The notes under the pieces are model-generated. The model had not been told where the DNA came from. It was given only the letters and a program-made list of their open reading frames with translations, and did no database searches. Position numbers and translations under genes: made by a program. This document shows, in pieces, positions 31,361 through 54,904 of a DNA stretch of 64,000 bases; within the stretch, counting starts at the first letter, position 1, and the number at the start of each line of letters is the position of its first letter. This DNA is from Heloderma charlesbogerti (lineage: Eukaryota > Chordata > Lepidosauria > Squamata > Helodermatidae). The stretch covers positions 682,001 through 746,000 of the forward strand of contig JANEZZ010001497.1 of the NCBI GenBank assembly GCA_026122225.1, written 5' to 3'.

Positions 31361-33593
31361 GATCCTAGCAAGTTGGAAAAATGGGATATAAATATAACAA
31401 CAAATAGTAAAATAAAAATACAAGCACAGATATCCATTCATATATTACAAATTCTTGTAGAATTTTTGTAAGACCGAGAGTCGATATAATTGTGCATGCA
31501 TACTAGGTTTTGATTGTGGCTGTATTGTGCTTGAGAATACTCTTATTTTGGTAAGACTTGTGATGACAATGATCAAACACACGTAAGAGTTTAGAATCAC
31601 ACCCACCACATGGCAGTGAAGGCCATAAATGTTAAATGTTGCATAAATGGTGCTATTTACGGCCACCATTATGCGCAAAATCGCAATTTATGTATAGAGC
31701 TTACCCATGTTTTTCTGCAAAATGGTGGCTCATGGGGCAGCAGGATGCTGTGCGTCACTCGCCGGGAAACCAATGGACTGTCTGGCAGCTCACCGTATAC
31801 GCCAAACAGGGTTGGGCAGCCAGCGAGGTCCTGCTTGCCCAGGCAAGGAGGGTATTCCAGTCAGCCAAAGAGGGCCTGAGGTCATCCAGTGTGAAGCCGA
31901 ATTCCAGGGGAGTACCAGGGGAGAGGGGTTATGTTGCTTTATTTTGCACTTCAAAAAAACCTACGCCTGTGACCCCTTCACCCATACTTTGAATACTGAG
32001 TATTTTATATGAGCCATGGCAACAAGCACAGCAGAGACCAGCAATGAGAAGAAAAATAGAGTGCAGACACCAACAACCTGGTTCATGGCCAGCCCAGCAG
32101 GCAGAGACAAAGGCCTGTCAGGCAGGTGCTGGGATGCTGGAAGCAGGCAGGCGCAGGGACAGGGTGTGAAGAAATGCCACAGATATAGCTGTTGTGTAAT
32201 GTTTATTGTGCCTGGCCTCTGAGAGGCTGCAATGTCTCTGTGCAGACCTGAGGCTTAGCCTTGTTGCTGTGCTGAAGGCCTGTTTTGGTTAGAGTCCTAT
32301 TGCTGGCATTCTGAAGCAGGGAGAGAGAGAGAGTCACTTATACAATTATAGATGGACGCTGTATCACGTAAATTTAATTCTGATTGGCTGAGGTTTCATT
32401 TAGGTGGAAAAATATGTTTGGGAAGTGACAGTTGACATTTATGGATTTGACAGTTTGGGATGTAGAGAGTCAGAGAGGGAGAAGGTCTGTTGCTTGGTTT
32501 TATGGAGGGACTAGGAGAATGCTGAGGAGAAAGGACGGAATATTAAGCTATTCCTTCCCTGTGGATAACCACTTGTGGGTGGTGAAGATCAGGAGTAGGG
32601 AGCAGGTGGTTGTGATACGCCAGGAGGCTGCCCTAAGATCTTGCCAGAAGGTTACCCAACAGGCATTAAAACCCAGAGAAACTGCCCAAGCATCCGGGAA
32701 TACCACAGAAGGTGCTTTGGGAGTCTGAGGAAGATGGTATCCAAGAGCTGGACCTGGCTGTGTGTGTTGGCTGAGGTGGAATTCGGCCTGATGAAAAAGA
32801 AGTCATTAAGAGATTTGTAGTCGGAAGAGTCTCTCTTGAGTCCTTCAGAATTGTCACTCAGCAGTCTTTTGAAAATCCCTAAGTAAATATTAGTATTCCC
32901 TCACATCTAAATTATTAGTTCAGTAAATTATCTTGCTTAATAGTCCATCTGTTCTTTAATGTTGGTGCCTATCTCTCATACCAAGCGACTAAGAGGTTTT
33001 AAAGTATTCTAAGAGAATCGGTGGCAACAGAAAAGGGTCGGCTTGTGGAATTCTGAATTAGAGTGACAGAGAGTTCTTCAGGCCCTGAAATATAAGCATA
33101 AAAAAAAAAAATTCAACAAATTGCAAAAGAAAAGAAAAAGAAAAAGAAAAGAAAGACACCCCATAGGTGGGATTGCCCAGTGAAGGGGCGGTTTCCCCAC
33201 AGGTGGTGGCAGCAGTGTGAGAGAAACCCCCATCTGGGCAGCTCCGCAGAGCTAAGCGCCACCCTTGCCAGGCGGCATTGTCCCACTCAAGACCGGCAGG
33301 AGCAGGAGGCAGAGGGGCCAGGCAAGGAAGCAGTGGCAGCTGGAGAGGAGGCCGTCAGAGGCAGGGGGCAGTGAGAGTTACGACTATTTGTGGGGAGCTG
33401 TCTGCTCCACGCAGATCCCTCTAAGTTATATGCAAATCTCTCCCTCCGGTTTTCTACTCTACATCTGTAGTGAATTGAGTCTACTCAGCTGAGCTCATGT
33501 ATTCATTTTACCCATTGTCAATAGCACCAGACACTGGAAACCACAGAGATTCAGACCATGTTTTCCATCCACAAAAAGCATTGAACCATTGGG
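31361..33593. other. Unassigned region
   Basis: No gene or complete element is supported. A purine-rich GAAAA run lies at about 33125-33155. GTGGCAACAGAAAAGG (about 33020) and GTGGCAGCAGTGTGAGAG (about 33204) resemble the region after an LTR, so a decayed LTR element is possible but unproven. Open frames here are short and unlike known proteins. Confidence 0.4.
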
Positions 33594-33594
33594 T

Positions 33595-33805
33595 AGGGGC
33601 CGTAGTTAAGTGGCAGAGCACACGCTCTCCATGCAGCAGGCCCCAATTCCTATCCTTGCCATCTCCATGTAGGGCAGGAAAAGTCCTGCCAAATCCCTGG
33701 CGTGCTGCTGACAGTCATCGTCAACAACGCTGGGCCAGGCGGACCAAGGGTCTGACTCAGTGGCAGGCGGCTTCCTTGGATCCTATGTTCAAGCGAACCC
33801 TGAAG
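33595..33805 (+). mobile_element. tRNA-derived SINE
   Basis: GGGGCCGTAGTTAAGTGGCA (box A region), then a decayed box B, the CAGTCATCGTCAACAACGCT body and GGCGGCTTCCTTGGATCCTA end. Same family as 37621-37806. It sits directly upstream of the defensin promoter modules. Confidence 0.8.
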
Positions 33806-33820
33806 ATATTCTGCTGCCAA

Positions 33821-34110
33821 CGCCCTGTGTCTTCTTGAGGAATAACATGCCAGGAGTTTCCGCCACCTGATATATTGCATCACCATGGTTAATGAACGGG
33901 GCTTATGTGTCAGTGTACCACAGCGGTTGTGAACTTCCTCTCTCTTGCGCCCTGTGACTTCTTGGGGAATACCATGCCAAGAGTTTCTGCTGCTTGGCAT
34001 ATTGCATAAGGATCATTAGTGCCCAGGGCTGACGTGTCGGTGTATTCCAGAGCTGTATAAGTAGGTGGCCATCCAGCCCTTCGGAAGACCCAGAACCTTC
34101 AGAGGTCTCT
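33821..34110 (+). promoter_or_regulatory. Defensin promoter with a duplicated 127-bp module
   Basis: Module 1 (33821-33947) and module 2 (33948 to about 34070) both start CGCCCTGTG and share TTCTTG.GGAATA.CATGCCA, GAGTTTC.GC and TATTGCAT. Only module 2 ends in a good TATA box (TATAAG, 34056-34061), about 105 bp before the start codon. GGGGAATACC (33964-33973) is a 9/10 match to the NF-kB consensus and TGACGTG (about 34031) resembles a CRE half site. NF-kB control is known for several vertebrate beta-defensins; its use here is inference. Confidence 0.55.
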
Positions 34111-34163
34111 GCCGCCAACTTCTTCTCTGGTGCGGAACTTGAGATCCTAGTCAACCTTCAGCA

Positions 34164-34221
34164 ATGCAGATGGACTGGCTCTTCATTGCTGTCGTCTCAG
34201 CGATAGGCTTGCTTTCTTCAG
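34164..34221 (+). CDS. Defensin exon 1: signal peptide
   Basis: The ATG at 34164 (MQMDWLFIAVVSAIGLLSS) encodes a hydrophobic signal peptide. A second ATG two codons on (MDWLF) could also start it. The exon ends TCAG|GTAAGG in phase 1, the usual place for the first coding intron of vertebrate beta-defensins. Signal cleavage is expected near the SSG junction. Confidence 0.82.
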
Positions 34222-37200
34222 GTAAGGCCGCTGTTCATCAACGTTGCAGAAATGTGGACTTATTAACTTGTCGATATGTATTCTGAGTATAATTTTTGTA
34301 TGTTACCTTGAGAGGGCTCGTATGCCCAATTACCTGGGACTAAGCCCCATTGAACTCAGTGGGACTGACTTCTGAGTAGACATGCATAGAATCAAACTGA
34401 GAATTATGACCCCAATTACTGTAATTCTTCATAATTGCTTGCACTTCAGCTCCTGCAGAGATGAAGCCTGTTTGCCGATGTTCAGAACCCTTCCTTCTAC
34501 CACCACGAGGTGCAAAGGGAATTCTTTAGCTTCCACCTACCTCGGTTCTAAATCTACACTCTCTGTGTAGTCTATGCAGACCCAGAATTGGGGTGTCTGA
34601 TTGTGATTGCAGATGAACCCACAACAGAAGTGACACTTCATCAATATTAGGAGGGAGGAAGAGCTTTATAGGACCACAGGGATTTCGAGGAGGGATACTG
34701 GAGAAATGCGAGGTGGACTAAAATGAGTTTGGATTTCCAAGGATCCATCCTGCGGAATCTGCTGTGGAGTGACCCTCTCAGGACACACAGAATCCGTGGA
34801 GTTTCGGATGGAGTTTTTTTTTTTTTTTTAACCTTCCCAAAGTTTACGCGGATTTATTTGTAGGAAAATAAATACTTTTCTGCTGAATAAAATTTGACTG
34901 GAATGGGGGACAATACGCTAAATGTTACGTACTAAGGTAAATTACGCAAATTCTTAGCAAACCGCTAACAAACTTATTTGTGTGTTTTTGCGCATGACGA
35001 AAAAGAGAATTTGCATCCATCTGTGAGGATGAGGGGAGAAAAGACAGAAGAAAAGTACTTGCTGCTAGAGAACAGGAAAATATGGTATTTGGAACAAGCT
35101 CAGTTTTGGCTGTCTCACTGCTCACACACAGCAGAGACCCTGCACGGCCAGTTCTGCTGTGAAATGGGGGTCTCTCCAGTGGAGGCACGGCGGCTGCTGC
35201 AGCCCCCTCCTCCCCTGAGTCCTCTGTGGCACAGCTGCTGCTTGCACATTCCCCTTCCCCCTGTCCCAGCCGACCTCCCCACATCCCCTGTTGGTGAGAG
35301 AACAGCACAGGGGAATATGCCTCTGCGTGGCTGCAGAGCGGATAGGCGGACATCATCATCAGACACTGAATGAGACCCAGCTATCTTTGTCTGTGTCTAG
35401 GGATGTCTAGGGACATCTATGGAAGCATTTTGAGGCACATGCTACCCTCTGGGCTCCCACAGCCCACCATGAATCAAAAATACCCAACACCCATTCACCC
35501 TCCCATCCATTCACACATCAACATCCAATGTTGTACTCTCATGCATACACACGGTATCCATGCACTGCAGGGGAAGACACAGTCCCCTCCAAGCCTGAGC
35601 GTGGAGATGGAGGCTGGATCCACACTTTCCAGCAGATTTTATCTCTTTCCTCGAGGAGGGGCGAAGACAGTTCACACGCCCCTTCAGCTGACAGACGCAG
35701 GCCCTCATCACAGCTGGCTGTGTGCCTGGGTCGCCACAGTACGCAGGGTCGCCACCATCCAATTGGAGTGAGAGGAGAACTAAAGGAGAACACAGAGACT
35801 GCAGAGAAGATGAAGGAAGTATCCTCATTTGTCTTCCCTGCACAAGAGATAGGACAAATATCTGTGCCTGAAGTGATATTTTCAGGAAGGGAGTCTGAGG
35901 AACCGAAGCAAAGAGCAGTGATAAGGTTCTCCACATGATGGACAAACGGAAAGTTAATAAATCAGCAGGCCCAGATGGTATCCATCCTAGAGTTCTTAAA
36001 ACCCCCTCAAATATGAAATTGCTGATCTTCTAACCGAAATATGCAACATATCCTAAGATCAGCCTCTCTACCAGAAGTTCTGGAAGATGGCCAATGTAAC
36101 AACATTAAAAAGGGATCCAGGGGGATCTGGGAAAATTACAGGTCACCTAATGTCTATTCCAGGTAAATTGGTTGAAAGCATTATCAAAGATAACATTAGT
36201 AAGCATATAGAGGGACAAGCCCTGGTGAAAAAAAATTAGCATGGCTTCTGCAAAAGGAAGTGCTGTCTCATTAACCTTTTAGAGTTCTTTGAGAGTGTAA
36301 AAAAACATCCAGACAGGGGTGACCCAGTTAACATGTTTTCCTTGGACTTTCAAAAGGCCTTTGACAGAGTTCCTTACCAAAGAGTCCTCAACAAACATAG
36401 TGGTCATGGAATGAGAAGAGAGGTCCACTTATGGATCTGTAACTGCTTAAAGAACAGAAAGCCGAGAGTAGGAATAAGTGGGAAATTGTCCCAATGGTGG
36501 GATTTAATAGTGAGGTCCAGCAGGGAACTGCATTAGGGCCATTCTGCCTATTAGCTACTCAATCATTGTCAAGAGTTTTTTGCTGGCATATCAGTGCAAC
36601 ACACAGGGGGATGCTCTGAATCTTTGCCATAGTCGTAGATCATGAAAACAAAGAATGCATCAGAGTGGATAGAACACAGATGAAGACAGTTAAGTCTCAT
36701 GAAGTGTTTCATTGACAGCTTCTTTGTGCTTGCACAGGAGTCCCAGGAACCCAAGGAGCATACACAACTGAGCAATGTCGAGCCTTGAATGGTACATGCA
36801 GGTTTTATGCATGTTTCCCGAAGAATGTGGTAATTGGAAAATGTGATTGGTTGGGATGGGGTTGCTGTGCACGGTAAGTCCACAAAGATGGTGATCTAAG
36901 AACAACATAGTGTGGCCCAGATTCGAATTTAATTTCTCAATGTGGTGTCTTTAAATATGGGCAGGTGCCCATAGAAAAACTGCAATTTGGGAAAAGGTGT
37001 GTGTGTGTGTGTGTGTGGGGGGGGGTCAGTGATGGGAGGGGCCAAATGTGCCAAAATATTATAGGGCCATTCTTGTAGGGGGCAGCAGTAGCAGTGATTT
37101 TTTTTTTAAGTGCGTGCCACTGTGGAGCTCCTATCGGCAGTGCTCTGCCAGGGATATCATGTCTCCCCTTAATGCCCCTTAAATAATTCTACATCTTCTA

Positions 37201-40200
37201 GACCTGATCATAGAGTCATGCTGTTGAGAAGGACCTTAGAGGGCATCTAGCGCAACCCGCTGCTGAATGCTCATGCCAGAGCATCTACCCAAGGGCAGTT
37301 GGATGAGGGATGACACCTTCTGGTCGGTGAAGGAGAAGGAGATACCTACAGGTCAGGTTTGCCTAAGCTGGAGTGCATGGAGTTTTGACATCTGGGCTGC
37401 AAAGCCCCCTTAGGTTCCCCCACGTGGCAGGACTTGGCCTGAAAGCCCCAGTCTCTGGAAGAATGTCCCCTGTTGGAATCCCCACTGTCTTCTCTGGTAT
37501 CAGATCAGGGGGAACAGGGGGGACGAAGGTGGTGGTGGGGGACTGTGTCAGCACTAGGGGATTGACTGCTCCTCCCACTGCCGGCAGTCTTCCTTCACCT
37601 GCGTCCTGCAGCCCCCAATGGGAGGGGCTGTAGCTCAGTGGTAGAGCACAAGCTTTGCATGCAGAAAGTCCCAGGTTCAATCCCCGGTAGCTCCAGGTAG
37701 GCTGAGGAAAGAATCCTGCCCTGGACAGCAGCTGGCAGTCATTGTCGACGATACTGGGCTAGATGGAGTGATGGTCTGGCTCAGTATAAAGCTGCTTTTG
37801 ATATTCCTCTGGCTGGCATGGGGAGGATCTGCTCCTCTCAGCACTGGCCGGATCCTTTCATGTGCCACATGCCATCCCCACCAGGATAACAAGCAGTGCG
37901 AAGAGCCGTGGACTCAGCCAGTGGTGGGAAGATCCCCTCCTCCCAGTGACAGCTGAATCATTCCTCACACGTCTGTTGCTGCCCACAAGGGGTTCAGAAG
38001 GCTCAGCGCAGCACCAGCTGGGTCCCGCCCTTCATGCCGAGAGAGGCACAGAACTCCAGAACTCCCTGGCACGGAGAAGATTAAAATGGTCAAGAGGACA
38101 TCAGTGGGAGTGGCCATGTCCTCTCAGGTCATGCAGCTCTTGGAGAGCCCAGTGGCGGGCAATTTGCCCCCTCCCCACTCTTAGTTCTGCACCATTGCGG
38201 TAGGTGCAGAGAAGCGTGCATGATGAGGTGCAATGTTTCCCTGGTTAAGAGCTTCAAAGACACTGTACAGCAGAATAGAACAAAGTGTTGTGGAAACTGC
38301 ATTGATATGTTTGTCGGTACCATGATTAGTGGCAGCGCAATGAACACAAATCAGGAGAAGAAGAACTGCATTATAGTTGGCTTTTTGCTACAAAAGGTGT
38401 AAGAATAGAACATTGCAAAGAACTTAACAATATAATTGTTTCTGAAGCACTGTGGTCCATCTGTCTTTTCCCAGCAATTCTCTGAGATGGATTCTGTATG
38501 TAACTGGCCATAGGCCAACAATTTAACTGAACAGAGTTGATTTTCCCAGAGCCAAGTGTCTTCAAGGGGCAGTATCCAATGGGGCCATTGCGCAAAAAAG
38601 GCCACTCCCACCGATTCCATTGCTTAAGCAGGACACATCACTTGTGCAATGGAGATTGAGGGCTTCCTGGACGAAGACCTGGAATGAGCAGACAGACCCG
38701 TTTCTGTATTGAGACAGGCTGTGGTATGAGAGTGTATTATATGTATGTGTGTGTATGTATGTATTAGGGGTGGACGAAAGTCACTTACCTGTCGTCGAAG
38801 GCCGTTCGCGGTGGGGGGGAGCGCTTCGCTGCTCCCCCCGCGAAGTTCAGGCCGGGGGGGGAGGCTTCCCGCCTCGCCCGGCTGAAATTCAGGCCGGGGG
38901 GGAGGCTTCCCGCCTCACCTGGCCGAAATTCAGGCCAGGGAGGAGGCGCCTCGCCTCGCCCGGCCGCGAATGCGAAAGTAAAACAAAAAACAAAAAAACG
39001 CCCCCTGATAGGCTACGTGACGATTCACGTAGCCTATCACGGCTAGATCTGCAAAGTCAGCCGTGATAGGCTACGTCAATCGTCACGTAGCCTATCACGG
39101 GTGACTTAAAAAAAAAAAAAAGAGTGTACGGATAATGGCGGCCCCCATAGGGAGCTGCCATTCGCGTTCCTTATTTAGTTGCTGTAGTCTACGTAAATGT
39201 TTACGTAGACTACGGCGAAAATAAGGGCAACACAAATAGAGTTGCCCTTATTTTCGCCGTAGTCTACGTAAACAGTTACGTACACTACAGCGACCAAATA
39301 AGGAACGGGAATGGCGGCTCCCTATGGGGACCGCCATTATCCGTACACTCTTTTTTTTTTTTAAGTCACCCGTGATAGGCTACGTGACAATTCACGTAGC
39401 CTATCACGGCTGACTTTGCAAATCTAGCCGTGATAGGCTACGTGAATCGTCACGTAGCCTATCAGGGGGCGTTTTTTTTTTTCCTTTCATTACAATGGCG
39501 GTGGCGGCAGCCGGTCGAAAGACCGGCTGCCACTCCCGCCTCGCTCGAACACCCGCCGAACCGCTGGCCGGACCAGCCACCGGGAGGGACATTCGCAAAA
39601 GGTAAGTCCCATCCCGGGGGGTGTGTGGGGGGCGGGGGGGGGTGCGGAGGATTTCTCTCCGAAACTTGTTCGGGGGTCGAACGCATTGGCGCTCGGCCCC
39701 TCGAAGTTTCGGGGAGAAATTCTCCGCCATCCCTAGTATGTATGTATGTATGTATGTATGTATATGTATATATATAAAATATTCAACCAAAAGTATTAAA
39801 ATCAGGCCAGGTATCCAGCACACAGCCTTGTCCAGGTTTTTGGGGATGAGTTTCCATTGGTATAGCTCAAGGACATTGACCAGTTGCTTGGACGGTTCAT
39901 GAAACAACTTCCATATTGGATCCTTGCTTCTCTTGGCTTTTACATCTTGGCATGGAGGGAACAGCCACCTAGGCCAGAGAGGTGATCAATACCTCGTTCT
40001 GAGAGGGAGTCATCCTGGGCCACTGGAAAGGGGCTGCGATGGGACCATTCATGAAGAATCCCTTCCTGGATCTGGGAAATCTTAATAACTTTAGGCTGGT
40101 GGCACATATTCTTTCATGGGCAAGGCACTTTAGTGCATGGTTGCCAACCAGCTCCAGATGTTCATGGATGAGATCAATTCTCTGGATCCATTTCTGCTGG

Positions 40201-43200
40201 GGTTGAGGCTGGGCTCGTCATGGAACAGGGCAACTTGCTGCCCCTCACCTACCTGCTGCCACTGCCACCACCCCTGTGGCCAGCCACTGCCATCCGTGCT
40301 CCTGCATGTGCTCCCCCCTCTCTGCCTGGCTGGCCAGCCCACTGGCTGGCCTCTCCCTCCCTTGCTTGGCCACCTGGTTGCTTGCTCTTGCCGCCATGGC
40401 TGCTGCTCCTGCCTTGTGCCCCAGCTATCGCAAGAGGTCTGGTGAACTGCTGTGAGAGGTCGGCCAGGTAGCCTCTCAGGACAGGTCCTATGTGCCCTGC
40501 AGGCAGCTGGAGCACAAGGCAGGAGTGACCGGGCAGGCAGGAGCCAGTGGCCAGCTGGCTACCCAAGCAAATGAAGAAGCGGCTGGCAAAGTGGGTTGGG
40601 TGGGTGGGTGGGCAGGCAGGTGGGTAAGCTGTGACCCCAGCCATAGCTGCCGACAGCCACCCATGGTAGGAATAAGAGGTGGACTCTCCTGCAGGGCAGG
40701 GCAGGGCAGGGCAGGGCAGGGCAGGGCAGGGAGAGCAGCACTCTGTCCTGTTCCTCCACCTGATATGGGTGCCTGACTCCGTGTAATAGAAGGCCTGGCC
40801 CTGAACGTGACATGGAATCCATGTTTTTTTCTCATATTCTTGACAGCATACACTGAAGAAAAAGGCAACACCAAACATTATCACTTCTAAGTAAATAGAG
40901 GTGGCACCAGGAGTTCAAAATCTAAAAGGAGAAGAAACAAAACATTAGGGTTGTCAGAGAATTCCATGACGGATCTCGGTGAGGCTGAATGCCAGGGCAT
41001 TTGGCCCCCCTGAAATCCATCATGGAATGAAGCCCCTGCCCCCCCACCCCACAAAAGGCGTGCAAAACAGAGTACTTATCTGCTCCCATCTGTGCTGCTT
41101 TGTGAATGGCGGCCGTTCTACGGCTGCCATTCACTTCCTCCTCTTCAGCCGTGATAGGCTATGTAAATACTTACGTAGCCTATCATGGCTAATGCAGGAA
41201 TGCCATTTGTGTCCCTGCAGAGGCTGTGATAGGCTATGTAAGTATTTACGCAGCCTATCATGGCGGGGAGGGGGGAAACCCCAGCGTACGCAAATGGCGG
41301 CAGCTACCGCTATTTGTGTAGCCTGGGGTTTTTCCCCCTGCTGTGATAGGTTATGTAAATATTTACGTAGCCTATCATGGCTCAATACAGTGACGCAAAT
41401 GGCGGCGGCTATGACAGCCGCCATTTGTGTCCTTCCAGGGCTGCCCGGTGGCCGGATGTCTGGCTGTGGGCGGCTGGAGAAGGCCAGCAGCTCCGCAGCT
41501 TGGCCGTGGAGCGGAGCTGGCCGGGCAGCATTCCAGGGGGATGGACGGAGCACCTCCCCCCTGTGAAGGATTCGGGGGAAGGGACGGAGTGCCTCCCCCC
41601 CACCACGGATGCCCCTGCGCGGAGTTAGGTAGCTGTTTCGTACATCCCTACAAAAAATCCCCAAAGAGGAAGAAGAAAAAGGTCTTCACTTTTTAATCTG
41701 AAGTACGTTAGTGTCCATGGTGTTCTCCAAACGCCAGCTTTTCCCATTCACCTATGTGCTAGGCTTCCACTCTGGTCTAGTGACCCATGAGCTTCCTTGG
41801 CTTCCTGGGATGCCTTTCACCTGCTGTAATTTCTGTTTCTCCAGCACTCCATTAGAACGTTGTACAGCTAAAAAAGGCACGTGCACTGCATCCGGCTGTA
41901 CCGAAACTGATACCGACCATGGACCCTGTGACGGAGGAGCCCAATGCTGCCAAAGGTGAGACCCCAAGCCTGACCAGTTGATATCCCTAAGGAAAGATAT
42001 CCTGCAGGTGCTTTTGTAGTGTAAGTAGGGGCCTAGAAATGGTATGTTGCCAACAGACTTCTTAGAAACACAGAATAGTAGGGTTGGACGGCGCCGATAA
42101 GGCCATCGAGCACAACGCCCTGCTCAGTGCAGGAATCCAAGGCAACGCTTGTGCGTATAGCAAGTGCAGCCGCAGGATAATAATGGTGGGGGAAGGGAAT
42201 GATTTCAGCTGTAAAGTAAATTACAGTAAATTTTTGGCACCAGGTGAAGCAATATTTATTTTCCCAGGCATTTTACTTTTGTCAGTTCCTGTTTTACATG
42301 TGGTGTTTTAAATCTTTGCACTGCAGCTAGGTTCTATGTGGTTACTTGAAATGAACAATACCAAAGTTACCAACAACCTAATCAATACTTCAGTTTCCCA
42401 ACAGTACAATATTCTAATGAGGAAACCACTATAACAAAGAGAGAAGAAAAAAGAGAAAAAAAAGAAAAAAAGGGAAAAGAGAGGAGGAAAGGAAGTGAAG
42501 AAATAAAAATTTCCCTCCCCTCCCCTTCCCTCCCCCTCTCCCTCTCCCCCCCCTTAAAGAATTGAGTTTAAACTCCAACACCCCCTGGCCTCCGATGCCA
42601 TTCAGTTTTAAAAACTGTATCTATAACATTAACAATCTTACAGTTTAATAAACAACCTTACATTTCTATATCATATCATCAATCTTATATCAAAGAAACA
42701 GCTCTACAATTAATTCCCAAAAGCCTATATTATTAGTAGGGATGTCGGAGAATTTCTCCACGAATCTCTGGGAGGCCGAATGCCAATGCATTCGGCCCCC
42801 TGAAATTGGTGGGGAAATTCTCCAATGGCCCCCCGCCCCCCCCGGGGCGGGACTTACCATGGCCGAATGTCCCTCGCAGTGGTGGGTCCCGGCAGCGGTT
42901 CGGCGGTGTTTCGGCAGCGGCAGCGGCCAGTCTTCCGACCAGCTGCCGCCACCACAATTTCCTAGTAAACTGTAAAAAAAAAAAAAAAACCAAAACGTGA
43001 TAGGCTATGTAAAGATTTACGTAGCCTATCATGGCTAGATTTTCAAATTCAGCCGTGATAAGCTACGTAAAGATTTATGTAGCCTATCACGGCTGACTTA
43101 AAAAAAAAAAAAAAAAGCACGTACGCAAATGCCATTTGCCTTCCTTATTTGGGCACTGGTAGTCTACGTAAAGATTTACGTAGACTACAGCAAAAATAAG

Positions 43201-44720
43201 GGCAACGCTGCCCTTACACACACACACACACACACACACAGTATTATATAATAATAAAACTTAATATAAACCTTCAAACATCAGTAATATATTTTATACT
43301 AGATATATTATCTATTTTAAAATAAAAAATATAAAGAAAAGCAAGAAAAAATAAAAGATGAAAGAGAGTAAACCAATATAAATATAATCATTTATCTTCT
43401 GAATAGCCTGGATCATATAGACTAAACACAAACAGTTAACAAAGCTTGTTTAAAGATTCCAGTTCATGGGGTTGTAACAGAATTCTCATGGCTTTTTATG
43501 TTGCCTCCGCCATGAAATCATTTCATGATTTAGAAACGTCTTCATCTGACCTTCAGACACAATACAAAGTGTAGCAGGATATTTTAAGTAATAATGTAAG
43601 TTCATTTGTTTTGCCATATTCTTTGCTTTGAAAAATTGTCTTCTTTTATTCACCTCCTCTTTGATGTAGTCTGGAAATAACATAACTTTATCTTGTTTCC
43701 AGGAAAGGCTTCCAGCCTCCCTTGCCAAATGCAGGATATAATTATTTGTGGAGACTTTTGCAGATTGAGCTATGATCGTGTAATCAGTCCCTTTAGCATT
43801 TGGCACAGGAAGTGCCTGCTCAATATCAAGTAAATAATCAGATGGAATAGAGAGTATCTCATGCAAAAATTTATCCACAAAAATAGGCAATTTTACATCA
43901 TTAGGCAGATTTTTAAGCCTGATGATACGTACATTGGATCTTTTTGTGAAGGCCTCCAGCTGAGAGATAATATCAGAGATATTTCTGAATCAAATTTGTG
44001 TCGTAATTTCATTTCCTGCCACTTGGTCTTCAAGCTCATTAATTTTCGTCTCCATTTTTTGCCATGATGCATTAATTAAATCCACAGCTCCTTGCAGGGT
44101 GGTTTTGGAATTTTGGATTAAATCCAACCTTCTGACTTGTTCCGTAAATTGCAAAGATAGTCTTTATCAGTGTAAATAACTCCCCTATATCTTATGTTTT
44201 CAACACTTTTGACACAGGATGCAGGGGGAGTAGATGCCAGCTCCCTTCTTCTCCTTGGCACAGACATGTTTCTCTCAAAGTCCTCAGATGTTCTCAAATA
44301 TTGTTAACATGTCTTAAATCATCCCTCAGAGGTTGTTGATATTTCTTAAAGCATCTATTATTATGGAACACGTCAGCCCTGTTTTCTCCTATAAAATAGG
44401 AGTCCCAGTACAACTTTTTGTGTTGGTAAAGCTCTCGGAAGATATTCCTGGAATCCACCCCCCACTATCTTGTGGGGTTACTTTCCTCCAAGATGTTGTC
44501 CAGAGCATGCCTTGCGTCCCCTTTCCATTGCAGGGGGGAGATGAAAAGGTCTTTCAACCTTTTAAAAAGCTGTTTGAGAAAGCTCCCATGGAGATCCGTG
44601 GGAAGCTGCCAGAGCGACATCGGTCCCAGCCGGAAGTCGCATTTTATGGTTTTAATTGTTGTGAACTGGCCAGAGAGCATTGGCTATTGGGCAGTATAGA
44701 AATGTAATAGATAGATAGAA

Positions 44721-44758
<38 letters not shown>

Positions 44759-47700
44759 CCGGGACTAGCTGATGCTCTACACATCTCTACTAATGTTCCG
44801 TTAATTGTGAAATACAGTCCAATAGCCAAAGCTCTCCATACAATATTTCACTAGTATATGCTTGCTGATATGGAGGTGATGTGAAGTGATGTGAACCACC
44901 TATCTGGAGAATGATATCTGAAGAATCAGTCCAGATGGATAACTCCTCACTTGACATTACAGCCATCAAGTCATGAGTGTGCATGTGTGAGCCTAGCTGA
45001 GGAATTTGAAAAGGACCCTGCTGCCCCTACTGGGCTAGTGACCGATAAGCTTCAATTTCTCTGCTTGCTGGCAGGGATTTCACTTTCTGTATTTTCTCTC
45101 TCTACAGAGATCCAGTAAAATACTGTAAATTTCATGGGAATGTGTGCGGCCGAGGCAAATGTCCTATGGATCATATACCAATTGGAGAGCAGTGCACGCC
45201 AGGGTATCCATGCTGCAAAAGGTGATCCCCAAAGCCTGACCAAAGCCTGAAAAATATGATATCATGCAGCTGCATTGATATCTTAAGCAGGGGCCTATCA
45301 ATGATGTATTGCATGTGCATTTAGCAACATGTACGTTTAGCAAGCATATTATAGTTATGTAAGATATATTGTATTACTCTTATCATATGGTGGGGAAAAC
45401 ATTTTAGGATGATTGTATTAGCAGAATAACAACTTAATAAAAAGGGGGGGATGTAAAAAAAACACCCCTAAAAAAACGTAACAGCAATTGGAAAAGCCAC
45501 ATTAAAAAGATGTGTTTTGACCCCCTTCCTGAATGCAGATAAAGTGGGAACCAGTTGTAACTCCAGAGCGTGTGTGTTTCAGAGTCTGGGAGAAACGTAT
45601 GGGACAACACTTTTCCCACGTACCTGATGAGCAGGGCTCTGTATGTGAGGGTATCTTCCAAGGGCCTCTCCTGCTGGTCTTAATGACTGAACAGATTCAA
45701 CTGGTCAGGATAGGCAAGGTTTGAGCAGACAACTGGTAGCCCTCACCTCTCCAGATACCTTATCCCCGTGAGAAGCAAATGCAATTACTGGGAAACATGC
45801 TTCAGTGGATTGACGGGTCCCTGAAGCCTGACCACTGAGATCAGCCTCAGAGATGGGAGCAGGTATACTCACCTCGCTCGACCCCATGTAGGGCTACTAC
45901 TGCCCAAGAAGGCCCTTGGTTTATCTTTCACACTCCTTATGTCCCTTTGGTACAAAAGGTATGTCTATTTTTAAATTTCAGTGAGTTGGCTTCCCCTGTG
46001 ATGATGTCATCAGCTGGTTTCGTGTTAAATTGTTTTTCCTTTATTTAAGCCCCATTAAGCTACATTCTGAAGGATACATTTGTATTGTTTAAATCATTTG
46101 TGTCTAAATAACATCACTTCTTATCGAGATAAAAGTTTATAGCAACATACACATAAGAACATTTCAGAATAGGGATGTACAAAAGTCACTTACCTTTTTG
46201 CAGATGTGATTCATGGGGGGGGAGGAGCTTCTTCCCTCCCCTCAGAATCCTCAATGGGGGGAAGGAAATCTGGTCCTCCCGCCCGGAATCCTGCCCGGCT
46301 AGCTCCGCTCTGCGGCGGCTCCATGGAGCAGTCGGCCAGGGCCGTCCGCAGCTGGAGTTCTGGCCGCAGATGGGCTGCTGTGATAGGTTACGTAAGTATT
46401 TACCTAGCCTATCACGGCAGGCCAAAAAAATCCACAACAGCGTACGCAAATGGCGGCGGCTACAGCTGCCGCCCTTTGCGTTCCCTATTCTTCGCCATTT
46501 TAGCTTACATAAATATTTACGTAGGCTATTATGGTGAAAAAAAAAAGGGGAACGCAAATAGCGTAGTGGCCGCTATTTGTGTTTCTCTTTTCTTTTTCGC
46601 CATAATAGCCTACGTAAATATTCACGTAAGATAAAACGGTGAAAAATAGGGAACGCAAATGGCAACCGTCATAGCCGCCGCCATTTGCGTACACTTTTTT
46701 TTTGCTTGCTGTGATAGGCTACGTGAATACTTACGTAGCCTATCATGGCCTCCGCAGGGACGCAAAAGGCATCCCTGAGTTAGCTGTGATAGGCTATGTA
46801 AGTAGTTACGTAGCCTATCACAGCTATGAAGAAGAAACGAATGGCGGCCGCCATTCGCCAGTCAGCATGGATGGCAGCAGGTAAGTGCTCCGTTTCACGT
46901 GCCTTTCGTGGGTTGGGGCAGGCTACGTAAAGATTTACGTAGCCTATCACGGCTAGATTTTCAGTCAGCCGTGATAGGCTACTTAAATATTTACGTAGCC
47001 TATCATGGCTGACTATGAAGAAAAAAAAAAGCATGTGTGCAAATAGCGTTGCCCTTATTTTCACCGTAGTCTACATAAATCTTTACGTAGACTTCCCATG
47101 CCCAAATAAGGAACGCAAATGGCGGCGCCCATGGTCGCCACCATTTTCGTTCGCGCTTTTTTTTTTTTCGAAGTCAGCCGTGATAAGCTACGTAATGATT
47201 TACGTAGCCTATCACGACAGACTTTGAAAATCTAGCCATAATAGGCTATGTAAATCATTACATAGCCTATCACTTTTTTTTTTTTTACTTTACTGGGAAA
47301 TGGCGGTGGCGGCAGCCGGTCGGAAGGCCGGCTGCCGCCACCACAATGCTGCCGAACTGCCGCCGGGACCCGCCGCCGAGAGGGACATTCGTACGAAGTA
47401 AGTACCATCCCGGGGGGGTGGGAGTGGAGAATTTCCCCACCAATTTCGGGGGGCTGAATGCGTTGGCATTTGGCCTCCCGGAGATTCGTGGAGAAATTCT
47501 CCGACATCCCTAGTTGGGGGCTCCGTTCCGCGTGCCTTTTATGGGTTGGGGGGGTGGGGGCTTCATTACACCATGGGTTTCGGGGGGCCAAATGCCAGTG
47601 CATTCGGCCTCATTGACATCCGTGGCGGAATTCTCTGCCATCCAGAAATCCCATGACATGTGACAGGTGTATTTGTGACACCAGAATTATTTCTTCATCT

Positions 47701-50700
47701 TCATCCTGCTTCGTGAGCATCTGTTCCCAAAGCATGTATTTACAGTCTGGGAAGCTCCCTCTTGTCGTTCTGCCCTTCTTGCCCTGGAATGCCCCCAGAC
47801 ATGCCCCTTTTTGGCCACTTCACACTCCTCTTGTGAACGTGGAGGGTGGCGTTGTTCTGTGCTGCCTCAGAGGCACTGCGGAAGTGGGGGGAGGTTGTTT
47901 CCCAGAAAACCAGATATCCTATAGCCGTCTAGCCACTGTGTAGTGGCCATGGGATTGCCCCCTCCCTGACTTACATATTTATCGCATTTCTATACTGCTA
48001 TTGCGGAAGCAGCTCCATTTCTTGCCTTGCTGGCATGGATTTCACTTTCCATATTTTCTGTTTCTCCAGAGATGGACCAGCGTATTGTAAATCAAAAGGA
48101 GGCAAGTGCCTTAGAAGATGTTCTCAGATTGTACCAACCGATATCATTGGAGTGTGTGCAGACGGAGTTCCATGCTGCAAGAGGTGAGCCACAAAGCCTG
48201 ACTAGTTCATATGCAAAATGAAAAGCAGCATGCAGAAGCATAGATAGCTTAAGTAGGAGACTATAAATGACATGTTGCCAGCAGACAAAAGAAATGCTTA
48301 TAGCAAGCCTATATATAGGAAAGTGATATTAGGGGACGGGAATGATATTCTCTTAGGATGGGGCCCTCCTCACAGTTGCCCCCAGGCACTGCTGGAGCTA
48401 CCAACCCGCCAAACGTGTTTTTTTTTTAAAATCAATATATTTCCTGCCTCTCCATAATCTCTTAACAACTCATCACCAAGTCCTGAAACAACAATAACTA
48501 ATTAAATAATTTTAAATAATTAAAACCAGTTGGGTTTTGGTAGTGATGGACAAACTTATCCCAAATGAGTTTGTTCTTTCCTCAGAATGTTAAAATTGTC
48601 ATCTATGCAAACTTGGATGAGAGTTCTCCTTTAACCTGAGGTCTCCTGTTGTGTGTATGAGTTTTTGCGCATGTGTAACATCAAACTGCGTCTTAGGAGC
48701 TGTATTCTCAAATCACAGAATGAGTCATTATACACACACACACACACACACACACACCCGTACACTCATGCACAGCTCCCTGCTATGGGACCAATCCAGT
48801 GCCCCATCCCCCCCTACACACACACATGCCTGCAACTTCTAATATAAACTGGAGACCCTTAGAATTTCGATGCTACAATAGCATGGCAGGATGCTCCCGT
48901 AATTTTTTTCAGGCCTGCTACCATGTAGGCAGATTACACATTGGACTTCCCCAAGTTTGGAAGAATCCCTGTTCAAGATGGGGCTAGGAAGGCAGGTAAC
49001 AGGGCCTTATGAACCTATTTTTAGTGGTGTAGCGACGAAAAAAATTCTCACATTTTTCAACTACTCTCATTCAATTTCATAGAAAAGAAATAGCTTTGGA
49101 AAGGAAATTCAGTGGCAAACAAAAGTTTGGAGAAATTCTCACGGGTTGAGTTTGGGTTTCTCGTGCCTGCCTTACTAATGAGGTGGTCAAGGGGTGCGCA
49201 CAAGTGAGCTGTCTTTCATTGTACAAACATCTCTCCAGCAGCCTGTAGCCTCCTCGGTGTCGTGTACTTCCATTAAAGCTGAGCAGAAGACATCACAGGG
49301 TAATTCCTCCCATGGGGCTTTTTCAGGTCAGAAAATGTAGGCAGCCTGGGAGGCTGCAGAACAATGGAGAGATGTGTAATAGAAAACACACACACTCAGC
49401 GCACCCTGGCCATCTCACTGTGATTAGGTGATCGTGAGAACACCACAAAAATAAATTATAAAACACCATGAGAATGAGACAGAGCAAAGGAAGGCTCTTA
49501 TCAGGGTGGAAGAAGCATTCAGCTATTTGGAAAACAGATTTTGGCTCACCACTACCTCCACCTCTTCCCTGGAGCTAGATACAACACTGCCCCCTTCACA
49601 CTTGCATTGTGGTGGATACAAAATGCAGGCCAGCCTGCCAGAACAATTGGTGCTGTTGCCATTTGCAGTGGCACACAACCCCCCAAAAAACCCTTAGATA
49701 AAAAGAAAGAAGTTGTGCTACAACTCCTGCCAGTGGTGAGTCCTACCTGTGAACAACTGTTGAAGGATTTCTCCCACCCAGGGAGAAGTACGGTGAAATA
49801 GTATGCCCAGTTCCTGGGATGAAGAATTTGGGAGGCCATTTGCCCACAGCTCTAATTTTTACTTCTTGCCTGGGAGTATGGAAACAGGAAGTCTGCTTGA
49901 CCTGCTGGGTTGCAACCTGTGCAGACCTGGTCCAAAATTATTGGTTATTTGAGAGCAATGAAAACTGAGATGGTGTCACCCACATTATAAGCCCTAAAGC
50001 ATCAAGCCATTTATAGCCCACCAACCATGCTTTGTGGCCTTCAAAATGCTTGACCTTCCCAACCTCCTGTTAGGGAGGGGGAACCATAGGTTAGTGGTAG
50101 GCCACATGCTTTACAGTGGAACTTCCCATGTTCAATCACCATTTGTTTCATCATGTCCAGTTAGAGGATACAGTACTGGACTAGATGGTTGAATAGCCTG
50201 GCCTGGTAGAAGGCCGATTCCCTTCTGGTCAAGTGTATAAGACTGGCGATCTGTTTGCATCTTAGTGCAATACTACACATGCAGGACTGAGACAGGGCTG
50301 GTAGGATGACTACAAATCATGTTAATGGTGGAGGAGTTCCAGCGAGTGGAAGAGATTAGCCGCAAAAGCAAGGCTGTGCCTGTGCCAGAGGCTCCATGTA
50401 TGGCATAGCATCCTAAACTTCTTCAGAGACATGACTGAGATTTGAGAAGCTTGGGATGCTGATCGGGGAGGAGTTACTACAGCTCTGCATTAGAAGATGG
50501 CACACAACGTGCTATGAGATTGCTCTATGCTGGGGGTGGGAGAAGGAAGCTGCTACAGCTTTTACACTGAGATCCTTACAGTAAGGATGAGTGAGAAAGT
50601 TGTTCCATTCACATTTAAGTGTGAATTCACCAAATTTACACTTCCTAAACCCACACACGAGTCGGGATGGAGTTAGCTGTCAGAATCCATACTTTTCAGA

Positions 50701-52038
50701 AATTTGTGTTCTATGTAAGCTGCCATGGAAGGACTTCTGCCCTGAAAGGCGGCCAAGAAATATTTTCACATAAATAAATAAATAAAATGGTTAGAAATAA
50801 AAATGCATACAAAAAATCATATATTTTGTAGGGATGGCGGAGAATTTCTCCACGAATCTTCGGGAGGCTGAGTGCCGAGGCATTCGGCCCCCTGAAAGTG
50901 TTGGGGAAATTCTCCGCCGGCCCCCCGCCCCCCCGGGATGGGACTTACCGTGGCCTAATGTCCCTCTCGGCGGCGGGTCCCGGCGGCGTTTCAGTGGCGT
51001 TTTGTCAGGGGTGGGGGCGGCGGCTGGTCTCCCGACCGGCTGCCGCCGCCACCATTACAAAATAACAAAGTAACCCCCCCCAAAAAACACACACACCCGT
51101 GATAGGCTACGTGACAATTTACGTAGCCTATCACGGCTAGATTTCCAAAGTCAGCCGTGATAGGCTACGTAAATAGTCACGTAGCTTATCCCGGGTGACT
51201 GTGAAAAAAAAAAAAAAGCACGTACGCAAATGGTGGTGGCCCATGGGTGCCGCCATTTGCGTTCCTTATTTTGGCATGTCTAGTCTACGTAAAGATTTAC
51301 GTAGACTATGGCGAAAATAAGGGCAATGCAAATAGCGTTCCCTTATTTTCGCTGTAGTCTACGTAAATCTTTAGGTAGACTAGACGTGCCAAAATAAGGA
51401 ACGCAAATGGCAGCGCCCATGGGCCGCCGCCATTTGAATATGCACTTTTCCCCCCCCAAAGTCACCCATGATAGGCTACGTGACGATTTACGTAGCCTAT
51501 CACGGCTGACTTTGGAAAACTAGCCGTGATAGGCTACGGTAATCGTCACGTAGCCTATCACGGGTTTTTTTGTTTTTTTTCACTTTTTCTTTCGAGGCCG
51601 GGGAGACGGGGCGCTTCTCCCTGGCCTGAATTTCAGCCGGGCGAGGCAGGGTGCCTCCCCCCCCTCACCTGAACTTCGGGGGGAGAAGCGAAGCGCCTCC
51701 CCCCCACCGTGAATCACCCCTGCGAAAAGATAAGTGACTTTCGTACATCCCTAATTTGGGGGGGGGGGGAAATGCATGAGAAAAGAAGTATGCATTTTGA
51801 AAAAAAGTGCAATCCAGTGTGGAGGCAAGATGGAACCAATTTAAAAGTGGACAAATGAGAACCTGAGTGAAATCAAACTTGACATATTTACCCATCCCTA
51901 GATTGCAGGGAAGCTTCTCCCAGCTTCTTCAGGAGCTTCTCATTCCTCTAGCCTGAGAGCTTTCTCTTCTTCACCTCTTCAGCATCGGCCAGGCTCCCAC
52001 ATTTCAGTTCCCATGTTTTCCATTTCAGACGTCCTTAG
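34164..52038 (+). CDS. Four-domain secreted beta-defensin (whole gene, six coding exons)
   Basis: Spliced coding sequence 34164-34221, 36738-36873, 41845-41955, 45108-45221, 48070-48183, 52029-52038: 543 nt, 180 residues. Beta-defensins are cationic, disulfide-bonded antimicrobial and signalling peptides secreted from epithelia and leukocytes. After the signal peptide come four domains, each with six Cys in the pattern C-x6-C-x3/4-C-x9-11-C-x5/6-CC. All splice sites are GT-AG and phases are 1,2,2,2,2. Net charges of the cysteine cores estimated by eye are about +4, -1, +3 and +5. Every domain ends in Arg (CCAR, CCQR, CCKR, CCKR), so processing at the borders is plausible. Most family members have one domain; avian AvBD11 has two. 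The introns are full of transposons. No transcript evidence is available; single-domain isoforms by exon skipping would also be in frame. Confidence 0.82.
35000..35774. other. Defensin intron 1, first half
   Basis: No gene recognised. The 100-140-codon frames on both strands resemble nothing I know. The stretch from about 35775 is LINE-derived. Confidence 0.4.
35775..36570 (+). pseudogene. CR1-like reverse transcriptase fragment in defensin intron 1
   Basis: The frame, broken several times, reads KRKVNKSAGPDGIHPRVLK, a degraded NYRPVSL region, LDFQKAFDRVPYQRVLNKH (catalytic block) and LKNRKPRVGISGKLSQW. It is much more decayed than the CR1 at 28.2-28.8 kb. Confidence 0.85.
36738..36873 (+). 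CDS. Defensin exon 2: domain 1
   Basis: TTGCACAG|GA to CACG|GTAAGT. A short linker (GVPGTQGAYTTEQ) is followed by a textbook domain, CRALNGTC-RFYAC-FPKNVVIGKC-DWLGWGCC-AR. Spacing is 6-4-9-6 with a CC end. Core charge is about +4. The flanking introns do not resemble those of exons 3-5, so this is the ancestral-type exon. It reads into a donor where single-domain genes would have a stop. Confidence 0.87.
37205..37320 (-). mobile_element. CR1 3' end fragment, old
   Basis: GATCATAGAGTCATGCTGTT then AAGGACCTTAGAGGGCATC resembles the CR1 tail in reverse, diverged. Confidence 0.6.
37621..37806 (+). mobile_element. tRNA-derived SINE
   Basis: GGGGCTGTAGCTCAGTGGTA, CTTTGCATGCAG and GGTTCAATCCCCGG form a nearly intact tRNA-Ala-like head (anticodon TGC). 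The SINE body GCTAGATGGAGTGATGGTCT and CTCAGTATAAAGCTGC end follow. The long body shows it is a SINE, not a tRNA gene. Confidence 0.9.
38765..39735. mobile_element. Palindromic non-autonomous hAT copy (971 bp), defensin intron 2
   Basis: Perfect GTATGTAT duplications at 38757-38764 and 39736-39743. Begins TAGGGGTGGACGAAAGTCAC and ends CCATCCCTA. The full hierarchical palindrome spans about 39000-39470, flanked by three GGCCGGGGGGGAGGC-like direct repeats on one side and the ATGGCGGTGGCGGCAGCC box on the other. Donors near 38788 (minus) and 39600 (plus). Confidence 0.94.
39744..40945. other. Defensin intron 2 segment with a (GGGCA)n array
   Basis: A pentamer array (GCAGG)n lies at about 40690-40731 with a GTGGG/GCAGG-rich lead-in from 40600. 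The Pro/Leu-rich frames across it are low complexity. Nothing else recognised. Confidence 0.55.
40946..41650. mobile_element. Palindromic non-autonomous hAT copy (705 bp), defensin intron 2
   Basis: Flanks CAAAACAT (40938-40945) and CAAAAAAT (41651-41658), 7/8. It contains four GTGATAGGCTATGTAA-type palindromes (about 41150, 41226, 41339 and a diverged one) and two AAATGGCGGC boxes. It ends about 190 bp before defensin exon 3. Confidence 0.9.
41845..41955 (+). CDS. Defensin exon 3: domain 2, acidic variant
   Basis: TTTCTCCAG|CA to CCAAAG|GTGAGA, phase 2 on both sides, 37 codons. Domain: CTAKKGTC-TASGC-TETDTDHGPC-DGGAQCC-QR, spacing 6-4-9-5. All six cysteines are kept, but the loop between Cys3 and Cys4 carries E, D, D and the core has net charge of about -1, unlike the other three. 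This may be a neutralising or structural domain, or relaxed selection. The flanking intron (about 41758-42200) resembles those of exons 4 and 5. Confidence 0.85.
42066..42135 (-). mobile_element. CR1 3' end fragment, short
   Basis: AGAATAGTAGGGTTGGACGG then GCAGGAATCCAAGG matches the CR1 tail in reverse; a piece of about 70 bp. Confidence 0.7.
42430..42560. repeat. Purine-rich then pyrimidine-rich tract
   Basis: GAGAAAAAAGAAAAA-type run to about 42505, then TCCCCTCCCC runs to about 42555. Low complexity. Confidence 0.8.
42737..43214. mobile_element. Palindromic non-autonomous hAT copy, right end lost
   Basis: It begins TAGGGATGTCGGAGAATTTC and has palindromes GTGATAGGCTATGTAAAG (about 42999), GTGATAAGCTACGTAAAG (about 43055) and GTAGTCTACGTAAAGATT (about 43159). 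It stops within GCAACGCTGCCCTT, where a (CA)n run (43214-43241) takes over. Confidence 0.85.
43483..44267 (-). pseudogene. L1 LINE ORF1 protein fragment
   Basis: The minus-strand ATG at 44267 reads MSVPRRRRELASTPPASCVK. After frame breaks a coiled-coil-like LEAFTKRSNVRIIRLKNLPN region appears, then (43890-43486) the C-terminal domain with DKFLHEILSIPSDYLLDIEQ, KQDKVMLFPDYIKEEVNKRR and NLHYYLKYPATL. These match the RRM and C-terminal parts of L1 ORF1p, the RNA-binding chaperone. It lies in defensin intron 3, antisense to the gene. No ORF2 is adjacent. Confidence 0.75.
44440..44760 (+). mobile_element. LINE 3' tail with (TAA)n
   Basis: GTTGTGAACTGGCCAGAGAG, ATTGGCTATTGGGCAGTATA and a (TAA)n array at about 44727-44756. 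This is a common 3' end of squamate LINEs; the exact family is not certain. Confidence 0.6.
45108..45221 (+). CDS. Defensin exon 4: domain 3
   Basis: CTCTACAG|AG to AAAAG|GTGATC, phase 2-2, 38 codons. Linker RDPVKY, then CKFHGNVC-GRGKC-PMDHIPIGEQC-TPGYPCC-KR, spacing 6-4-10-5. Core charge about +3. The donor GTGATC is weaker than GTGAGT. The junction creates CCKR-DG at the next border, a dibasic site. About 80 bp upstream (AGTGACC, CTTGCTGGCAGGGATTTCAC) match the introns before exons 3 and 5. Confidence 0.86.
46170..47642. mobile_element. Palindromic non-autonomous hAT copy containing a second one, defensin intron 4
   Basis: It begins TAGGGATGTACAAAAGTCAC at 46170. The likely end CTCTGCCATCC lies near 47642. 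The outer copy has at least five GTGATAGG..ACGTAA-type palindromes (46380, 46712, 46786 and others) and several AAATGGCGGC boxes. A second copy is nested from 46920 to 47512. Confidence 0.8.
46920..47512. mobile_element. Nested palindromic hAT copy, left end truncated
   Basis: It ends GACATCCCTA at 47512 followed by GTTGGGGG. The left flank has GTTGGGGC (46912-46919), 7/8, and the host sequence CGTGCCTTT.GTGGGTTGGG is repeated on both sides. It contains GTAAAGATTTACGTAGCC palindromes and the ATGGCGGTGGCGGCAGCC box. The internal donor has lost its first G (ACGAAGTAAGTACC). Confidence 0.8.
48070..48183 (+). CDS. Defensin exon 5: domain 4, most cationic
   Basis: TTTCTCCAG|AG to AAGAG|GTGAGC, phase 2-2, 38 codons. 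Linker RDGPAY, then CKSKGGKC-LRRC-SQIVPTDIIGVC-ADGVPCC-KR, spacing 6-3-11-5. The Cys2-Cys3 loop is one residue shorter and the Cys3-Cys4 loop longer than in the others. Core charge about +5. Flanking introns match exons 3 and 4 (AAGCCTGACTAGTTCATATG after, CCTTGCTGGCATGGATTTCA before). Confidence 0.87.
48420..49490. other. Defensin intron 5, first part
   Basis: A (CA)n run lies at about 48733-48758. The segment 49060-49180 (CTCATTCAATTTCATAG, GGTTTCTCGTGCCTGCC) is related to 21190-21300 and 29216-29320. No gene. Confidence 0.5.
50829..51753. mobile_element. Palindromic non-autonomous hAT copy (925 bp), defensin intron 5
   Basis: Begins TAGGGATGGCGGAGAATTTC and ends TCGTACATCCCTA. Full hierarchical palindrome about 51100-51570. 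The flanks ATATTTTG and ATTTGGGG match poorly, the right one running into a G tract. Its internal donor (minus, about 50945) reads GGTAAGTCCC; the end-proximal one is changed to AGATAAGTGAC. Confidence 0.9.
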
Positions 52039-53356: not shown

Positions 53357-53531
53357 CCTTTCCCCCAGCAAGCTGGGTCCTCATTTTACCGACCTTGGAA
53401 GGATGGAGGGCTGAGTTGACCTGAGCCGGCTACCCGAGACCCAGCTTCCTCTGGGATCGAACTCAGGTCATGGGGGTGGGGGTTTCAGTTGCAATACTGC
53501 CACCTACCACTGTGCACCACACGAGGCTCTC
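53357..53531 (-). mobile_element. tRNA-derived SINE
   Basis: On the minus strand it reads GCCTCGTGTGGTGCACAGTG (box A region), GAGTTCGATCCC (box B) and AGGTCGGTAAAATGAGGACC. This is a second SINE family, different from 37621. Confidence 0.75.
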
Positions 53532-54904
53532 TTGTGGGTGGAGTTCTGTTGTGTGGTGGTGCTCCTGTGTTTGTGGTGGTGCTTAGTGGATTTCCTTGTG
53601 TCAGTGTTCTTTGTGCACTGTGGTGTTTTTGTCTGGTTTGGTCTGTGTGTGTGTGTAGTTAAGTGGTGGTTGTGCGTGGCTGTCTGGGGTGTGTGTATTT
53701 GTGTGTGTAGTAGTGTGACTGCTCTAAAATGGCTGCACCAGTGCTTGGCAGGAGGTGGGACCATGAGGAGACCAAGGTCTTCCTCATTAACATTAAGAGC
53801 AGCTAGGCAGTGGCAGCGCTGTTTGGCAGCTGCTCCTGCCACAGTGAAGTTTATTGGGCCCGGATAAAGAGGAGGATGGAGCGAGCAGGCCACCATCGCA
53901 TGACGGGACCATTGTGGTCCAAATGGAAGGCGCTGAAGCAGTCCTTTATCAGGGAGGGGATGGCTACTGCTGAGAGGAGGGCACCACTGTCCAACCCCCC
54001 CACCTACTACTGGCGCATCCACAGAGTGTGGGTCAAGGTAGGCCAGCCCCCATTTTCGCAGAGGGATATGCCTGGTAAGTTATAGTTATCCCATCCCATC
54101 ATCAAGTTTAACTAAATATGAAAACAAGGATGTGTACCGAAAATGAAGCTATCTCTTTGTGGTCTTATGTGGAAACAAACAAATCCTGACATTTAGCCTG
54201 CCATCCTATTCTTGTTGAACTTGGACAGAAAAAGGTCTCATCATCTTCTGGCCACTTTGGCTGGTTGAAGGGATGCTGGGAACTGCATTGCTTTATCCTG
54301 TACAACATGCATAGGATTATGCGGGCCTGGCTATAACTCATATTACACACTGACATGCTGTCCATTTCCAGGGAAATGCTGCTGCTGCCGGTCTCTGCAC
54401 AGTGCACACAGGGGGACTGGCACCAGCCCAGCAGCAACAGGACCAGCCTCTCGGTGTGTGCACATCATCCTTCTTCATGTAGTGATTGCTGAATTTTTGC
54501 ACCCCACCCACCCCACCTTTCTACCAAGACATTGGCACTCCAGTCAACTCATGAGCAAGTGTTCATCTGAGAGCTTGGAGATCTGGGTATAGTCCACTCA
54601 GCCATGGAAGCTCGCTGGGTGACTTTGGCCCAGTCAGAAAGCTCCAGCCTACCTCAATGTTGTTGTTGTGAGAATTAAATGGAGAGGAAGAGGCTAATGT
54701 GAGCAGCCTTGGGTTCCTTGCGCTACGAAAAAAGGTGGCATTTATGCAATGCATCAATAGAATGAATAAATACCATGGCATTGCAAATGTAGAAATGGGG
54801 TGAGTAGAAGTGCAATCCTGTGCATGTTTTCAGATGTCCAACAGTCCCCATCATGCCAAAACTGTCAGTACTGTATAATCTGCCTCCCTAATTATCCCCT
54901 CATC

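Follow-up and report, generated by a model that had tools for sequence, protein, structure and literature searches.

Gene layout and the four defensin domains

We analysed a stretch of 64,000 nucleotides from contig JANEZZ010001497.1 (positions 682,001 to 746,000 of the forward strand; the whole stretch is called the window below), in which positions 34164 to 52038 probably hold one gene for a secreted beta-defensin with four domains, a 'polydefensin'. Rebuilding the splice from the raw sequence joined six exons in one frame to a protein of 180 residues, as the original prediction, made from the DNA letters alone, had proposed. The GT-AG junctions and matching phases that it described were likewise recovered at 5/5 junctions, with a single frame kept throughout. 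The stop codon lies at 52036-52038, and the C-terminus of the protein reads CCKRRP. The coordinate 33738, which the prediction had used to label the first domain exon, proved to be a slip for 36738.

Past the signal exon, the protein comprises 161 residues with 24 cysteines and a net charge of +10 (K+R-D-E). All four domains fit the vertebrate beta-defensin six-cysteine pattern C-x6-C-x(3-5)-C-x(8-10)-C-x6-CC when variations are allowed. Cysteine spacing and charge are 6-4-9-6 and +3 in domain 1 (exon 2), 6-4-9-5 and -1 in domain 2 (exon 3), which is thus not cationic, 6-4-10-5 and +3 in domain 3 (exon 4), and 6-3-11-5 and +4 in domain 4 (exon 5), whose third gap of 11 lies beyond the strict 8-10. 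A last gap of 5 is found in 42/66 Komodo genes, according to the data given in PMC6716921. When the 64 kilobases were scanned in six frames with a broad beta-defensin cysteine pattern, the only 4 matches were these domains, all on the + strand, which upholds the claim of four complete six-cysteine domains; Markov simulations of the window gave 1 match in 40, a chance expectation of 0.025 per window. Identity between the domains is 24-41% for the pairs reported. The Pfam family Defensin_beta (PF00711) matched the whole protein in 3 stretches (3.5e-8) and exon 2 alone at 6.7e-6. Among solved structures, phmmer with the whole protein aligned exon 2 with human beta-defensin 3 (1.9e-4) and exon 4 with spheniscin-2 (0.021), and a profile built from the four domains reached the same two proteins at 5.6e-4 and 7.8e-4, respectively.

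Of the predicted end signals, a polyadenylation signal follows the stop codon (Table 1), and the candidate TATAAG is the sole TATAA in the upstream region 33564-34163; the more stringent pattern TATA[AT]A is not matched there, and the candidate falls short of a full TATAAA or TATATA. The same region has one match to the AP-1 consensus, at 33753, and none to the NF-kB and C/EBP consensus patterns. Two alike stretches of ~110 bases (33801-33920 and 33941-34065) also lie in the promoter region, the second of them reaching the TATA candidate.

Table 1. Features of the predicted four-domain defensin gene (window coordinates)
Feature	Position	Strand	Description
TATA box candidate TATAAG	34056..34061	+	108 bases before ATG
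Exon 1, coding part	34164..34221	+	Encodes signal peptide MQMDWLFIAVVSAIGLLSS; phase 1 at its end; two in-frame ATGs
Exon 2	36738..36873	+	Phase 1-2; defensin domain 1
Exon 3	41845..41955	+	Phase 2-2; defensin domain 2
Exon 4	45108..45221	+	Phase 2-2; defensin domain 3; weak donor GTGATC
Exon 5	48070..48183	+	Phase 2-2; defensin domain 4
Exon 6, coding part	52029..52038	+	Completes Arg, adds Arg-Pro and stop; followed by 3' untranslated region
Polyadenylation signal AATAAA	52164..52169	+	

Exon copies and their lizard relatives

The sequences flanking exons 3, 4 and 5 are homologous on both sides: z scores against shuffles were 7.1-10.6 for the 3' flanks (100 bases, first six left out) and 3.5-5.9 for the 5' flanks (85 bases, last 20 left out). 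For exon 2, the upstream flank is unrelated to those of exons 3-5 (z 0.4-0.7) and the downstream flank is weakly like them (z 2.3-3.7). The flank scores of exons 3-5 were reached by 0-2/3000 shuffles and by 7-13/4000 random pairs drawn from the window; we take these window pairs for repeats. Because of the z scores, exons 3-5 are read as duplicated together with their flanks, with exon 2 standing apart. At the level of sequence, these comparisons show that one phase 2-2 exon gave rise in tandem to exons 3-5, flanks included, and that exon 2 is a more distant relative.

Codons of the three copies were compared in a cysteine-anchored alignment. Outside the cysteines, the likeness at codon positions 1/2/3 was 0.23/0.32/0.48, 0.47/0.33/0.57 and 0.39/0.42/0.45 for the three pairs, with likeness at third positions not below that at first and second positions. 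Nonsynonymous and synonymous divergence (dN/dS), resting on 23-24 synonymous sites that are near saturation, was about equal in two pairs (1.02/1.04 and 0.70/0.69), and dN was lower in the third (0.72/1.28). These values may hint at fast protein change in exons 3-5 and prove nothing; given the near saturation and the lower dN of the third pair, they allow no firm statement on positive selection. In a MAFFT comparison, exons 3-5 were 48-57% identical and their 80-base flanks 64-76%, and pairwise alignment with free gaps gave 61-70% for the exons, 68-71% for the 3' flank and 60-74% for the 5' flank. That the exons diverge faster than the introns is only a hint, seen with MAFFT and nearly vanishing with free gaps.

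The copies have counterparts in the Komodo dragon, for which PMC6716921 describes VkBD39 as having three domains and VkBD43 as having two. In a comparison set of 43 domains, from 39/66 genes in Table 2 of that paper, the best match was VkBD39b (second domain) for exon 3, VkBD39c (third domain) for exon 4 and VkBD43b (second domain) for exon 5. All five VkBD39/43 domains fell within the top 7/43 for each of these exons. For exon 2, the same five rank 11-29; its top score went to VkBD56, and it is without a clear Komodo partner. In a domain tree with few columns, many open forks and a bootstrap that has not settled, exons 3-5, the five VkBD39/43 domains and the long-branch VkBD15 form a nine-row group with support of 91/80. 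The tree does not unite the three exons to the exclusion of the others: exon 3 stands with VkBD39b, and exons 4 and 5 branch off basally; if this placement is real, the exon copies would predate the split from the Komodo line. Further likenesses to the VkBD39/43 domains are the five residues before Cys1 (also seen in VkBD8 and VkBD11), the D-P, D-L or D-G start, from which exon 3 departs (T-P), and the R-D or K-D borders between domains. A glycine start, present in 32/43 Komodo domains, is absent from exons 3-5, and 5 of the 11 Komodo domains without it are those of VkBD39/43. Exons 3-5, which group with these domains, thus probably belong to the repeat type of VkBD39 and VkBD43. Unlike the two Komodo genes, for which the table lists no such domain, the present gene has a first domain of a different type in frame before its three repeats. 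The likeness of exons 3-5 to the Komodo domains makes a squamate source of the DNA likely, and the repetitive sequences of the window look squamate as well.

A layout of this kind is described for the anole two-domain genes LzBD52/53/55, whose second and third exons are reported to encode two non-homologous defensin domains, the third exon being said to be a homologue of the VkBD39/43 repeats (PMC6716921). As far as these genes are known, by description only, they differ in having one repeat exon as against three here, and in a first domain reported to resemble VkBD40, unlike exon 2. Exon 2 was also tried as a VkBD40 relative and rejected, VkBD40 ranking 31/46 for it. With no first domain of the VkBD40 type, the whole gene was not filed as an orthologue of LzBD52/53/55.

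Gene models, splice sites and surrounding DNA

A strict scan for signal exons, which called for a signal-like open reading frame (ORF) and a good donor, returned exon 1 as the sole place on the + strand, and three candidates on the - strand. Loose settings gave 9 distinct donors on the + strand and 12 on the - strand, i.e. background, and included one phase-2 candidate start at 39899-39981, at the donor threshold. Since exon 1 ends in phase 1 and exons 3-5 start in phase 2, exon 2 must precede the latter for them to be translated in frame. The evidence favours one gene with four domains over other readings, given the single strict signal exon, the phase mismatch that keeps exon 1 from splicing directly in frame to exons 3-5, and the origin of exons 3-5 as tandem copies. 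To this extent the predicted single gene stands; that all four domains are carried by a single transcript is something we infer from the DNA. Of the refuting outcomes that the original prediction had named, a single domain exon between exons 1 and 6 is feasible in frame for exon 2 only.

Several observations weigh against a four-domain product. By bit score, the exon 4 donor (AAG/GTGATC) reached 2.9 and is weak compared with the donors of exons 1, 2, 3 and 5 (5.8-7.5 bits), and the exon 6 acceptor, at a moderate 4.7 bits, is the lowest of the five acceptors. Retention of the intron after any domain exon reads into Arg-stop (CCxR-stop), and 215 bases past exon 4 there is an AATAAA, at 45436. 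At the protein level, PF00711 scored exon 3 at 0.032 and exon 4 at 0.21, both under the curated cut-off, and did not match exon 5 alone. The vertebrate beta-defensin fold has three strands and disulphides 1-5, 2-4 and 3-6; AlphaFold, applied to the exon 5 domain only with a four-row alignment, gave a model too poor to use (predicted local distance difference test, pLDDT, 56.2; predicted template-modelling score, pTM, 0.28). A search of 5.8 billion protein sequences, whose reptile share was not established, returned 14 word-sharing candidates, none with E<=10. Finally, the distance of exon 2 from VkBD40, both of them long branches in the domain tree, slightly lowers our confidence. The Arg-stop says little, because it arises wherever a phase-2 end precedes GTRA; similarly, AATAAA is so common on the + strand of the window (53 copies) that the copy near exon 4 carries little weight. 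Within the model, certainty is lowest for the exon 4 donor and the tiny exon 6. At the place of the exon 4 GTGATC, the donors of exons 3 and 5 have GTGAG, and exon 4 seems to have lost the good G at +5.

Taken together, the weak exon 4 donor, the AATAAA at 45436 and the modest exon 6 acceptor mean that a product may have three domains and end after exon 4, or that exon 4 may be skipped. As an account of the main product, such shortening, with exons 3-5 as optional cassettes or transcription ending after exon 4 and one to three domains in the protein, appears rather unlikely to us. Exons 3-5 are all symmetrical and could be skipped in any combination, and the listed domain counts of the Komodo and anole relatives are two and three; yet none of the four cysteine frameworks is broken or interrupted by a stop, which argues that each is translated, and the abundance of AATAAA takes weight from the copy at 45436. 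It is highly improbable that each domain exon has its own start and the locus is a cluster of single-domain genes. Beta-defensin genes are usually clustered, as PMC6716921 states, the CCxR-stop would end each domain exon, and the loose settings offer the phase-2 start at 39899-39981; against this, the strict scan shows no second signal exon on the + strand, the loose candidate occurs at background rate, and exons 3-5 do not have the glycine start typical of the Komodo domains. A bolder version of the one-gene model, which we hold to be unlikely, is a splice-modular gene whose phase 2-2 exons would change fast at the protein level and be included, skipped or used as the last exon. One promoter could then yield a set of secreted proteins with one to four domains, and the dibasic border might release single peptides.

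Mobile elements lie around and inside the gene. DNA elements with large palindromes and the ends TAGGGATG...CATCCCTA occupy 46170-47512 and 50829-51753, in defensin introns 4 and 5, where the ends are present and no target-site duplication of >=7/8 was found; two further ones, at 21560-22325 and 22488-22940, have perfect 8-base-pair target-site duplications. The window has 41 copies of the core TAGCCTATCA. Defensin intron 3 harbours an L1 ORF1-type fragment (43486-43989, -; PF17490, 4.7e-5). Outside the gene, two hAT-type transposase remains in opposite orientation are split over several ORFs, one at 7802-10416 (+) with a BED zinc finger (PF02892, 2.7e-4) and one at 57583-60996 (-) with a hAT dimerisation domain (PF05699, 5.8e-16); two further pieces had no Pfam match. 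Remains of a non-long-terminal-repeat retrotransposon at 25009-27535 (-) comprise a reverse transcriptase (PF00078, 1.5e-35) and an endonuclease (PF03372, 2.1e-15) in adjoining ORFs. A Myb/SANT-like DNA-binding ORF at 2388-2732 (+; PF13837, 3e-11) is probably transposon-derived, and the peptides at 12737-13156 (-) and 53504-54079 (-) resemble it by eye.

Known polydefensins and a proposed mode of action

Multi-domain defensins are known in the anole, the Gila monster and the Komodo dragon, as set out in PMC9138766. According to the same source, helofensin of the Gila monster (Fry et al. 2010, as described there) is the product of one gene with four defensin domains in tandem and is said to stem from internal duplication of one ancestral domain; a table in PMC4280549 lists helofensin as a venom protein with reported toxic action. 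Compared by description only, the present gene resembles helofensin in having four tandem beta-defensin motifs in one lizard gene, and differs from it in that helofensin is a venom protein with a one-domain origin, whereas exon 2 here is another exon type. That we are looking at the counterpart of this Heloderma venom defensin rather than at an immune peptide is very unlikely: the equal domain number and the probable lizard source of the DNA would suit such a counterpart, but exons 3-5 are closest to published immune defensin domains among the 43 tested, and the distinct exon 2 does not agree with the described duplication of a single domain.

The avian defensin AvBD11 has two domains, with spacings of 6-5-9-6 and 6-6-7-6; its antiviral activity is reported to need both, its other activities resting mainly on the first (PMC9138766). 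Like AvBD11, the four-domain gene devotes a separate exon to every domain and links several of them in a single secreted chain; none of its four domains has either of the AvBD11 spacings. The original prediction had called four domains in one frame unusual. No description of this gene was found among the best-ranked matches of a literature search that covered few subscription papers; in general terms, the rarity was overstated, as VkBD39, VkBD43, LzBD52/53/55 and helofensin have been published (PMC6716921, PMC9138766). What is new is another four-domain lizard polydefensin, with a clear history of exon duplication, the kind itself having been published already.

In the four-domain model, a signal exon and a phase 1-2 first defensin exon would be followed by three phase 2-2 defensin exons and a short last exon, and copies of the phase 2-2 exon could be gained or lost without a break in the frame. 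The product should be a single secreted chain with 12 disulphides, four beta-defensin folds on a string, comparable to what is reported for the two domains of AvBD11. Its action would be antimicrobial: linked domains may bind together and present more than one binding face to microbial membranes. Expression would be expected in epithelium or granulocytes. The KR at the border of domains 3 and 4 and the KRRP end are possible sites for proprotein convertases, and the AR and QR at the remaining borders would be poorer cleavage sites; an uncut chain is our default reading. The reported toxicity of helofensin suggests that a multi-domain defensin can also take on another job.

How polydefensins emerged, and what they gain over single defensins, is called unanswered in PMC9138766. 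The present locus points to a plain route: when a defensin exon of equal phase at both ends lies within a defensin gene's intron, there is no limit to how often it and its flanks can be duplicated. Furthermore, the Komodo VkBD39 and VkBD43 entries may have a first domain of the phase-1 type upstream in the same gene. Along this route, the number of domains should vary among lizards through gain and loss of exons.

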